DNA from: Haliotis asinina
Taxonomy: Eukaryota; Mollusca; Gastropoda; Lepetellida; Haliotidae
Direction of reading: 5' to 3'
DNA length: 64,000 bases
NCBI RefSeq assembly: GCF_037392515.1
Contig: NC_090291.1
Coordinates: forward strand, 37,099,001-37,163,000
A model generated the notes under the pieces. The model saw only the letters and a list, made by a program, of their open reading frames with translations, was not told the origin of the DNA and ran no database searches. Below are positions 31,781-38,000 of the stretch, one piece after another; position 1 is the first letter of the stretch; each line of letters starts with the position of its first letter. The translations under genes were made by a program, and so were the position numbers.

Positions 31781-32078
31781 CATAGAATTAATGGTATTCT
31801 TGCATGGTATTGCCATGTGTATATTTGATGTAGTAATGGCATATCTAGAGACATGAAGTGACATGAAGTGGCATGAATGCTCCCTGTCTATATCACAGTT
31901 TCAAGTCTTCCATAGGTTTGGACAGACAGGCATTGATGTAAAAAAATAACTGTACGACATGAACACCTGGATAATACTAGTCATTGCAGGGAGTTGTCAT
32001 GGTGACTGATGAGATGAACACGATCGTGATGTCCAGGTGGCTGTCTTGCAAGAAGTCTGTCCTGGTCACATGACCCTT

Positions 32079-35000
32079 TCATTTGTTCCAGCCATACCTG
32101 CTGACCATTCTGTTGAAAGCATCGCGGGCTTCCCGTTCTGTGTAGGCTTCATTAGGTCTGGTGCTGTCAAGACTGGCATTCGGATCGGACATGATCTCCG
32201 CTCTCACTTGAACCAAGATGCTCTGTAACCATGGTGACAAGAAACATTATCATTTCTGTATATTTATGACACAAATAAAATACACAAATTCACAACAGAT
32301 ATGAGAGTTTTCAAGTACCAATAAATACAACATTTGATTTGTGAATTATTTTAAAGTATTACTGGGTCCTGTTCAACATGTGACTACTATCTCTGATTCA
32401 CGGACATAGCCTTCTGAATTTCAAGATTCCATATTCTGTATCAAAGGCCTTCAGCCATAAGTACATGTATGTAGAGTGTACCAGTATATATAGTCAAACC
32501 ACAGTATATATCATTAATGATCATAATAATTAAGTTTTCTAGCACAAAAAAGTTAATAAAGCATAAGTAAAATTGTCAGCTGTCTCCCTTACCTGTTAAC
32601 ATACAGCTGTCTCATTTGCGTGTACTTTAGAATATACAGTGCTAGAGATTCTGACACAGTATAATCTCCCATAACTTTCTTAAATTTGTCTACATTACAT
32701 AGAAAACTACAATACTTGGTAAAAAATATTTCTCAACTAGTTATTAGTATATAATTGACATGAAATAATATAGTGCACTTTGTCTTCAAGTGCAGGTACA
32801 TTCAAATTATGAAAACAATATTTACACATTCTGTCCTCTCTCCCCATAGGCCTGTTTCAACAGCCAACTTCTGATTATCACACCTGAATCTGCTAAGGGC
32901 AATTTTTACTTTTCAAGTATTACAGATACCTTTTGATTATGAAATAATTATCACGCTTACTGGTTTCACCTGTGGCATGTGCCCATGTAAGTTTCCAGCA
33001 GTCCTGCATCTATTCCTTACAACCTCTAAGAAAATGGAAGACATCACCAACACCTTGTTGCAAACGAGTGAGTGAGTGAGTGAGTGAGTGAGTGAGTGAG
33101 TGAGTGAGTGAGTTTACTTGTACGCTGCACTCAGCAATATTCCAGCTATATGGCAGCGATCTGTAAATAATCGAGTCTGGACCAGACAATCCAGTGATCA
33201 ACAACATGAACGTCGATCTGTGCAATTGGGAACTGATGACATGTGTCAACCAAGTCAGCGAGACTGACCACCTGATCCCGTTAGTTATCTCTTATGACAA
33301 GCATAGTCGCCTTTCATGGCAAGCATGGGTTGCTGAAAGCCTATTCTACCTTGGACCTAGCTCTGTTGCAAACGAATGATACCAAATCCATTCTTATGCA
33401 ACAAATGATGTAATTTTTATGGCAATCTTGATATTTTACACTTATCTTGACTCACCGGCTAGGGGTGCTCCCAACCATCCCCTCTCACCACCTTCTAGCC
33501 TCCCTTCAAGTCTTAGTGGGGGCAGATTTCAGAAAGGGTGGCAATAAGGCCACATGTCACATGCAGTACAACCAACTTAGTCACAGTATTATTCATTACA
33601 CTCCTCAACTGATTCTAACAAACCCGAGTAGGAGGTTGCATAACATGTTCCTTTAACCCAGAGAAAAAACCACAGACATACTAATGTCTCACCTCAATGT
33701 CATTAGATGGAACCCAGCCCGACTTAGTCAGCATCTCCATGCAAATACTGCCTCCTATTGTCACATGACCTGGAATACACAGAACAATGTCAGCAGCATT
33801 GGGACGAGGGTACAGGTCAAAGGTCAAGGATGAGAGAAACATGAGAGGCATGTCAGACTAAGTAAACTTATCCTCAGTACTTTTCGCTACACTCTACAAC
33901 TGAGTCTAACAAAACCTTATGGGAGGTCGCGTCAGGTAACCTTTGAGACTGGCCAATCAGAACAGAACACAGCTTACCAAATCGCGAAAGAGCATACTCG
34001 CACATACCTTTTGAAAATTTTATCTCGAAAAGATTCGTACCCGAACGATTCCGAATGCTATTTAGCGTATGCTCGCTTCAGGGTGAAGCACACAGTATAA
34101 GTACAACCATGACAACGGTGAGTCGCTGAAAATAGTGTTTTTAGCAACATTCTAGGATGTTATCTTGCGGAAATATTAGCTGATGGTAACCATGTCAACA
34201 CAAACCCCAAAGCGTATATACAGCTGGTCAAATAACTGTATTACATGCAGATTTTTGTTTGTGGAGAGATCTGTGTCAGTGACCTGAATATTTTGAAAGT
34301 CCCTCCAATTCCTAAATAGTAGTTGTTGTCTGATTCGTTAAATCTATTTGACGTCTCGTGTTTTATTGGACGGTCATTGGTCGCTCAAAGGTTACCTGAC
34401 GCAACCTTCTGCTAGGTTTTGTGAAAATCAGTGATGGAGTGTAACAAAATACACTGAGAGTGAGAGGCATGTATGGGTAAGATTTAAACAATTACCCATA
34501 AAACTGCTGGCAACTTGAACCATGACCTGATGACTCTGATGAATGGTGGGTACCTACCTGTCAGGAACTTGAACTGCGGTCTGATGACTCTGATGAATGG
34601 TGGGTACCTATCTGTCAGGAACTTGAACTGCGGTCTGATGACTCTGATGAATGGTGGGTACCTACCTGTCAGGAACTTGAACTACGGTCTGATGACTCTG
34701 ATGAATGGTGGGTACCTGTCAGGAACTTGAACTGCAGTCTGATGACTCTGATGAATGGTGGGTACCTATCTGTCAGGAACTTGAACTGCGGTCTGATGAC
34801 TTTGATGAATGGTGGGTACCTACCTGTCAGGAACTTGAACTGCGGTCTGATGACTCTGATGAATGGTGGGTACCTGTCAGGAACTTGAACTGCAGTCTGA
34901 TGACTCTGATGAATGGTGGGTACCTACTTGTCAGGAACTTGAACTGCGGTCTGATGACTCTGATGAATGGTGGGTACCTACTTGTCAGGAGCTTGAACTG

Positions 35001-38000
35001 TGGTTGGATGACTCTGATGAATGGTGGGTACCTACCTGTCAGGGACTTAAAACGTGGTCTGATGACTCTGATGAACGGTGGGTACGTACCTGTCAGGAAC
35101 TTGAACCGTGGTCTGATGACTCTGATGAATGGTGGCGTGTAGGGATAGTCCTGAGGAAACTGCATCTCCAGTGTCACAACCGGCTGTCAAAGAAAGGCCA
35201 TTAGTTCATAACCACAAAATGTCTGAAAGGATCTTACCAGGATTCAGATGAAATTTCATACATAGAATGTCAAGCTTTGCATTTAAATATCAGTTTAATT
35301 CAATAGCACATAAGTAATAAAAAAATATACGAATAAATAATGATATCATAGTACTACTTCAGGCAATTTGCAGGCACTGCCTGAAAGGGCTTCACACCAA
35401 CCATCCCAGTGATGGTGGCTGAGCAACACCAACCTCCTGCTTGTACTTGGTGGAGTACTGCTGGAGATCCTTGCCAAGGCGACTGTCAGTCGGGACATCA
35501 GTCAGCTTTACGTCCTGGAACAGGGAAACTAAAGATGAAATAGTGCTCCTTGATCGAAGCGATCCATACACATAAATTCACAGTAACTATTCATGTCTTC
35601 CACTTCATCAAAGCCAATAGTGGCCATCTTCAACCACATCCATATGTCATCACCCTATATAACTCCACTGACACCAACCTCGCCAATCATTACATCCACC
35701 CCTATTAACATCACCATTCATTACATCCACCCCATTAACATTGCCATTCATTACTTTCACCCCTAGCAACACTGTCATTCATTACATCTACCCCTACTGA
35801 CATCATCATTCATTACATCCACCCCTATTACCATCATCATTCATTACATCCACCCCTATTACCATCATCATTCATTACATCCACCCCCACTGACAAGGCT
35901 AAGTCAAGCATCAGATACTTAAATCACTGTTGGACTCACCCACATAAACAAGTTGTCTCCCCTTGGGTTTGCTACAATGCCATACTGTGGGCCAACTTTG
36001 AGAATATTCTTTAAATCTGCAACATCAGGTGAAATGTTCAAGGCCTACATTTAATGTCCTGGCCCACATGCCTATAATGAAATAGCTTCGTATAGCTCTT
36101 ATTTATTTTTTTATTATATCAGTCTTCTTCAGTAAACATGTCATCAGTTATGAATACATAATGATGTTTGGAAAGTGGTCAAAGGTAGCATACTTGGGGT
36201 TACACTTTCTCAGTAAAGTACAGATTCCTAGTAAAATCTTGATATTGGCAGTTTCCTTCCCAAAGGATCTTCAATGCTGAATTCTTCAAAACCTGTTCCA
36301 GGGCCCTGAGGGTCGTGTCATCACAGGGGAAAGCAGAGACATGGGAGTGTGTATTGGAAACCTCCCCATTAAACGGGGAGGGAGCAGACCATGGTTGACG
36401 CAAACAATTAGCGTTTAAATTCAGAATTGTAGTCTGAAAGTTCGAAATATCCAAGGCATTTAGTAGATGTGATCTCAACTGCCGCCTTCAAATAATTGCT
36501 CATATGTTCAATCTGCCTCTGTTTAAAAGTCATCACAGTACGGAGATGATCTATACCTGCTGGATTTGTTAGAGGAGCCTGTGATACGATGTAAGTCCTC
36601 ATCAAGTGCATGAGGCAAATCCACCACCTCAAGTGTAGGAACAAAAAAGTCATCCTTACGAAAACATGGCACCGTATTGGATGGAGTGAGAGATAACCTG
36701 GCAAAATACTTTCTAGAGCCGTTATCAAATCCTAAATCAGTGAATCCTGAGAGATAGAATTTGGGTTTGACCAAATCCCTCTTATCAAGGAGACACCTGA
36801 GACAATTAATCGGTCATCCAATCGGGAACTTGTCAAAGTCCCAAATGAGTATTTACTTCCGGAGAGGAGTCCTCATAACCTGGAACGAAAGCACCTTCCA
36901 ATGAATCAGAATGGTAGCTGTAAGGTTGCTGAACTGGAGAACGACTCCTTGATCTATGTCTCTGTGTAGAAGATTTCCTGCTATTGCATATACTGGCACC
37001 AGGTGAAGCCAAATCGTGATAAGAAGTAGCCCTAGAAGTAGACGATGCCACAAACATTGACGGAGTCGGAGGAAATACAGATGATGGAGGGTCGGGAGTA
37101 CAAATGGCGCGCCAGCACAAGTATGATCAGTGCTGACTGTGTAGTTGGTAACAGAGGTATGAGGTGCGTGGGAGGAATGGCCACAGAGATAGTGCCCCAG
37201 GTGCTGCAAATGCTGTCTGTCCTGGGGATCCTCGAAGGTGCCATCCTCTGCTGAAACATAGACTGTATAAATGGCTGCATGTAAGGTGCCAGAGGCGCAC
37301 CATAGTCATCAAGCACAAAAAACGTTGAGGTAGACACTAAAGGCACCAGAAACGGACACAGATTCGGTGCACCAAGAGTCAATGCCGTAGCAAATGAAGT
37401 CACAGACACTGCAAGAGGAGTCAACAATCCTCTAAAGCAACCCAGATACTGCTGAAGTTGTGGAGGTGTAGTCTCCTGTGAGGAACCACACCAGTCCACA
37501 TTAGTCCAGGAAACAACAGAGTTCTGAGAAGCGAACATCCTACGCCTATATGCTTGCTGCTTCCTTGAAACCCGCAGGTACATACTGAAAGCTGAGGGGG
37601 CAAGTTGGAGACAATGAGAACAGTTGATGTCAGTGAACAATGCCGAGTACAATCGATGGGGGTCTCGGCCTGATTTGCTGCCATTACAGCCAATACAACG
37701 TGGCATAAATCTGCAACATAAGCAGCAGCCCACAATAATAAAGTGCGCAACAAAAGAGTACAAACACACGTATAATTAGACAAACATGATTTCCCGCCAA
37801 CCACGAACGGTTAAGGGTTCATCTTGTAATATTATTGGATATTTAACTACATCACAGGTAGATTGCTGGAACGTGTGCACAGCTGATTGCTATTACTGGC
37901 TTTATATATACAAGACAAACACACACAATAATCTTAAACGATACATATAACATAATCCCAACCAAAAACAAATTAGAACAGATATGGTAAATAAACTAGT

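Follow-up and report, generated by a model that had tools for sequence, protein, structure and literature searches.

A minisatellite repeats a coding exon end and its splice donor within a UBE2Q-like gene of Haliotis asinina

Why should the end of a coding exon, together with its splice donor, recur twelve times in the intron that follows, and does such an array alter the protein? The question is raised by a gene for a ubiquitin-conjugating enzyme (E2) of the abalone Haliotis asinina, located in a window of 64,000 nucleotides (contig NC_090291.1, positions 37,099,001 to 37,163,000 of the forward strand, numbered here from its first letter). On the minus strand, the last 46 bases of exon B of this UBE2Q-like gene and the first 8 bases of its intron form a unit that is repeated head to tail 12 times, as the original prediction had noticed. 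We analyzed the array, its donors and similar arrays across the genome (G000; 1.14 Gb, 159 contigs, one assembly). The explanation we favor, with good though not complete confidence, is that a neutral minisatellite grew over the splice junction, that the array is inert and that the first donor is predominantly used. The features of the locus are, in order of transcription:

35434-35514, minus strand: exon A, coding, upstream (DVKLTDVPTDSRLGKDLQQYSTKYKQE), from an open frame and splice motifs; donor GAG/GTTGGT, 5.5 bits on a donor matrix (the slash marks the exon end).
35184-35433, minus strand: upstream intron, 250 bases, from splice motifs.
35090-35183, minus strand: exon B, whose end is multiplied (PVVTLEMQFPQDYPYTPPFIRVIRPRFKFLT, split codon G), from the UBE2Q1 2qgx match when joined with exon C and from Pfam UQ_con.
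35082-35135, minus strand: unit 1, exon end and authentic donor CAG/GTACGT, from unit alignment and donor scoring.
34874-35081, minus strand: units 2-5 as far as donor 5, open in the frame of exon B; donor 2 strong, donors 3 and 4 weakened, donor 5 weak.
34481-34873, minus strand: remainder of unit 5 and units 6-12, no longer in frame; donors 6, 9 and 11 strong, GT lost in 7 and 10, donor 8 weak, unit 12 diverged.
33770-35089, minus strand: host intron, 1320 bases with the array included, from splice motifs and homology across the junction.
33693-33769, minus strand: exon C, with the catalytic GGSICME strand, from the PDB match when joined with exon B.
32079-32222, minus strand: terminal coding exon (SILVQVRAEIMSDPNASLDSTRPNEAYTEREARDAFNRMVSRYGWNK, stop), from an open frame, splice motifs and Pfam (three joined exons).

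The gene was traced from exon A to the terminal exon; an amino-terminal domain like that of UBE2Q1/2 would lie in exons upstream of A. With exons B and C joined, the best match among solved structures was UBE2Q1 (2qgx, E 1.8e-10), and three joined exons scored 51.5 bits against Pfam UQ_con (cut-off 27). The UBE2Q-like identity proposed earlier is thus borne out, and the host gene is, as judged from its sequence, a UBE2Q-type E2 closest to UBE2Q1, with a ubiquitin-conjugating (UBC) fold and the active-site stretch GG-(S/A)-ICME-(L/M)-LT. The UBE2Q1 alignment spans the junction 35090/33769 with two additional query residues beside it; because this is far less than one 18-residue unit, donor 1 was taken as the authentic donor. 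The sole other genomic match of the exon pair B and C is a paralogue with 49% identity. As a comparison for the donor, the UBE2Q-like paralogue at C3:62514161 was ruled out, being intronless across that site. No known structured RNA reached the gathering threshold in 32000-37800. A second minisatellite (31 bp, 6.5 copies, 35687-35887 of the window) lies about 170 bases upstream of exon A (35514-35434).

Exon B ends in ...FIRVIRPRFKFLT and the intron starts with GTACGTACC. The 12 units begin at 35135, 35081, 35027, 34973, 34919, 34869, 34815, 34761, 34711, 34657, 34603 and 34549, and the array ends near 34481. Each unit is 54 bp long, apart from units 5 and 8 (50 bp), which are without 4 bases just after the donor GT. 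Tandem Repeats Finder (TRF) gave a period of 54, 11.4 copies, 91% matches and a score of 1015, values that exclude a chance origin. Head-to-tail units of tens of bases that overlap a coding exon end (unit 1) define a minisatellite at an exon–intron boundary, which is what is found here. Units 4-11 differ from each other by 0-3 bases (the gap of units 5 and 8 uncounted) and unit 1 differs from unit 6 at 3 positions, while unit 12 is partial and diverged, with 13-18 differences from the other units. Units 5-7 recur as units 8-10 (5 and 8 identical; one difference each between 6 and 9 and between 7 and 10), which accounts for a 158-bp TRF period.

These patterns suggest how the array may have arisen. 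A tandem duplication of a segment spanning the exon B end and donor would have started it. Because the edges are diverged and the middle is homogenized, we infer that unequal exchange or slippage then extended it into the intron; homogenization of the middle would have included the copying of the 158-bp block (units 5-7 as 8-10) as one. An assembly artefact deserves practically no credence: such arrays are indeed hard to assemble, but the units are told apart by private variants and arranged in blocks, and the assembly has many arrays of this sort at other places. Identity as a dispersed repeat was also rejected, as all six genomic matches of the array sequence lay within the array itself (in a search that skips very common words).

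The strength of each donor was assessed in bits, using the donor matrix, and as pairing energy with the U1 5′ end (ATACTTACCTG), which was taken from the U1 genes of the examined genome. Among the best candidates for U1 small nuclear RNA, 39 of the 42 matches scored are arranged in tandem at G000:C13:43860295-43885421, mostly at 635-base spacing. On this matrix, donor 1 (CAG/GTACGT) has 9.81 bits (U1 pairing −9.3 kcal/mol), donors 2, 6, 9 and 11 (CAG/GTAGGT) have 10.58 bits (−13.2 kcal/mol), donors 3 and 4 (CAA/GTAGGT), weakened at −1, have 6.66 bits and donors 5 and 8 (CAG/GTACCC) have 5.05 bits. GT has been lost to AT in units 7 and 10 (CAG/ATAGGT), and unit 12 has no donor. The earlier claim that every copy has a donor at least equal to the first therefore holds for the four strong downstream donors, but fails for the other seven of the 11 copies, which are weakened, GT-less or lost.

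The predictions made about reading frame were accurate. The frame of exon B remains open through four further units (open reading frame 35186-34830) until the first of the 50-bp units, unit 5, breaks it. When joined to exon C, donors 2, 3 and 4 yield open products with 18, 36 and 54 additional residues before the catalytic strand, to which donor 5 adds the case of 72; donors 6-12 yield premature stops. Open copies are expected here, because 46 of the 54 bases in a unit derive from coding sequence and the unit length is divisible by 3. Even so, exon B might be variable in length, with donor 2 (rarely 3-5) used in part of the transcripts to produce E2 isoforms that have 18 or more extra residues before the catalytic strand and altered activity. 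Donor 2 keeps an open frame and outscores all other in-frame sites, and the private exonic variants of unit 2 comprise three synonymous changes and one that is not (P = 0.07; 28% expected to be synonymous). However, the insert would repeat the FIRVIRP strand in the conserved stretch just before the active site, probably disturbing the fold; the in-frame donors 3-5 are weakened; and the frame is not followed by sister arrays at other genes. We consider a length-variable exon unlikely on balance, and low-level use of donor 2 may occur.

The wider counts for selection, made by hand from the unit alignment (unit 12 left out of the event count), gave a similar picture. Pooling in-frame copies 2-5, three of eight changes were synonymous (P = 0.41; split codon and two columns of unclear direction left out), or four of ten with these two columns included (P = 0.31). 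Of 16 variant events, 4 fall in the 9-base donor (P = 0.27 for at least 4), which is hence kept no better than the rest of the unit. None of the counts departs from neutrality, on small numbers. The donor count also bears on a regulatory role, in which extra U1 sites would secure recognition of exon B or the out-of-frame donors 6, 9 and 11 would lower output via nonsense-mediated decay. The strong donors in these three units do lead to stops, but among the ten units 2-11 six donors are weakened or dead, and the donor is not preferentially conserved, making a splicing buffer or decoy very unlikely. Of the options originally left side by side, namely a length-variable exon, a splicing buffer or a neutral array, the last is the most likely; nothing in the selection counts, donor variants or frames of sister arrays favors the functional ones.

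The tandem arrangement also recalls the dual-specific splice sites described in the repeats of the human polyubiquitin gene UBC (PMC10809524). If the E2 array behaved likewise, its units would act as both donor and acceptor and be spliced out in multiples of 54. The two arrays share AG/GT in most units; in the E2 array, such units read ...CCTGACAG immediately before GT, with 55-60% pyrimidines in the preceding 20 bases, compared to 60 and 65% for two true acceptors tested. Against this, AG dinucleotides lie close upstream in every unit, a long pyrimidine run is absent and the intron has its own acceptor at 33769. The UBC repeats are moreover coding, whereas the E2 units are intronic and acceptor use is unlikely. 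Dual-specific use here is therefore highly improbable.

Whether growth over a splice junction is peculiar to the E2 gene was addressed with sister arrays. With a period of at least 20 and at least 2.8 copies as TRF criteria, the window contains nine arrays (3,753 bases, 5.9%), and 20 fetched gene regions contain 25 (9,608 of 198,020 bases, 4.9%; two regions gave no TRF rows). With minisatellites so dense, some must hit splice junctions. Among the CAGGTRNGT matches listed, 24 arrays (own grouping) fall in the first 48.7 Mb of C1, of which 20 were read (C1:3726845, 4363416, 31854160 and 35466776 were left out). An array was judged an exon end copied into an intron when its first unit is the end of an open exon stopping at a donor and copies of that end lie in the intron; eight of the 20 were so judged (L034, L036, L037, L038, L041, L043, L047 and L051). 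Five further places, picked from AAGGTRAGT matches as exon-like and thus not a fair sample, included three exon ends (L055, L057 and L058) and one judged not to be (L056). In a mirror case recognized by eye (L054, G000:C1:74718700-74719200, complement), the start of an SLC22-like exon, together with its acceptor, has been multiplied into the intron ahead of it; PDB gave an SLC22-like match at 0.0018, and the only Pfam match was DUF2474 (0.00013, below the family cut-off). L017 was rejected as an exon-end array, because it begins 47 bases past the matched end of a UBC-domain exon and does not repeat the exon end (by eye).

Family support for the sister exons varies. It is firm for L041 (G000:C1:4722300-4723460), an MRP1/ABCC1-like gene (PDB E 2.4e-33; Pfam ABC_tran 4.9e-6) in which the exon end 'IAHRLNTIMDYDR' and donor are multiplied into the intron with period 57. 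L058 is an exon of PAICS (SAICAR_synt 8.4e-15). Matches are modest for L043 (GH31 0.0032, below the curated cut-off; the exon of its neighbor L044 gives GH31 3.8e-7) and for L036 (GABA-B receptor in PDB 0.0067; 7tm_3 0.0097, below cut-off), and weak for L047 (MFS 0.015; no PDB match up to E 1) and L034 (ABC_export 0.048, SNF 0.059, dopamine transporter 0.94). No family match was found for L037 in Pfam and structure searches, or for L038 and L055 in Pfam. At L057 (G000:C2:15536480-15536980) and C2:15536238-15536511, period-53 units contain an acceptor-like sequence and a donor along with an exon-like piece of 18 bases, and look as if a small exon were repeated.

Unit lengths in 10 of the 11 exon-end sisters (L058 left out) are 49, 54, 49, 32, 57, 27, 41, 44, 46 and 53, three of which are multiples of 3. 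Among nine readable sisters, one (L036) has a second donor that is in frame and open; in L034 the same holds for the third donor. For this comparison, L037 was anchored on a later copy of its unit, which leaves the 49-base step unchanged, and L041 and L043 have their next usable donor two units further along. In L041, an in-frame stop precedes the second usable donor, so the MRP1-like gene must rely on the first. Since sister unit lengths mostly break the frame or bring a stop, exon-end arrays are in general not kept for frame. Eight exon-end arrays per 48 Mb extrapolate, crudely, to about 190 loci genome-wide. A bolder reading is that the genome harbors a natural library of tandemly repeated exon-end donors, possibly some 200 loci, so that the choice between near-identical donors is put to the test in living cells many times over. 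In a minority of these loci, the E2 gene included, in-frame donors would yield proteins longer by whole units, array length setting the number of isoforms that each individual can make. This reading we regard as doubtful.

Returning to neutral growth of the E2 array, the exon B acceptor would pair with the nearest donor, that of the first copy, and the array would leave with the intron so that the gene stays functional. Tolerance of the array would follow from exon definition favoring the first donor: minigenes with two copies of a donor spliced, under exon definition, from the upstream copy alone (PMC9225289). The E2 gene resembles these constructs in having several near-equal donors downstream of one acceptor and differs in offering a natural run with five strong donors instead of two engineered ones.

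Several considerations weigh against this account. Older experiments with duplicated sites reportedly favored the intron-proximal one. U1 pairing is stronger at donor 2 than at donor 1 (−13.2 versus −9.3 kcal/mol), and in 86% of the human events that PMC9225289 evaluated, the stronger site was the dominant one. Exon definition itself is not assured, because the upstream intron measures only 250 bases. The private exonic changes of unit 2 (3 synonymous to 1 not, P = 0.07) point the same way. For the recurrence at other genes, the sister exons L037, L038, L051, L055 and L057 rest on an open frame and splice motifs, and L034 and L047 on weak family matches.

Arrays of this kind are already known in print. 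Within the open-access literature, PMC2812944 was the one paper on point for tandem repeats and splice sites in general, and among the abalone and mollusc papers listed, none was judged, by title and abstract opening, to be on point. PMC2812944 reports internal tandem repeats at exon–intron boundaries in human segmental-duplication genes, the copies of which can bring splice sites. Minisatellite units span the boundary there as in the E2 array; transcripts support exon or intron changes in recent paralogues in that study, whereas the E2 array is known from DNA alone and its paralogue is only 49% identical. The E2 array is a further case, with an interesting genome-wide setting.

A related process is the gain of introns by tandem duplication of AGGT segments, reportedly described by Zhuo et al. 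in 2007. This process, reviewed in PMC3443670, likewise duplicates an AG/GT-bearing segment in tandem; the E2 array differs by duplicating an existing donor and lengthening an existing intron, with no new intron shown. Taken singly, the E2 gene neatly illustrates how a minisatellite can capture a splice junction. Taken as a class within one genome, such arrays would provide many natural competitions of near-identical donors at 27-57 base spacing, which could be scored at once with complementary DNA from the species. They would test the exon-definition rule demonstrated with two donors in minigenes (PMC9225289) and show how often repeat growth becomes new protein length.

Genome-wide pattern counts were also obtained. 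Three CAGGTRNGT sites at 39-69 base spacing gave 4206 matches compared to 2767 for a reversed-pattern control. The corresponding counts were 426 and 450 for AAGGTRAGT, 334 and 63 for CAGGTAAGT, with two C2 arrays dominating the places listed, and 244 and 175 for an acceptor pattern. These counts were rejected as an enrichment statistic, as a few very large arrays dominate and other patterns either show no excess or are governed by single arrays. At least two very large arrays, at G000:C2:71626440-71629856 and C2:77714655-77717477, have CAGGTAAGT in many of their units. Tandem acceptor-like sites (TTTTTCAGG) were observed at G000:C4:63663349-63663552, some 130 bases ahead of a match to Pkinase (C4:63663680).

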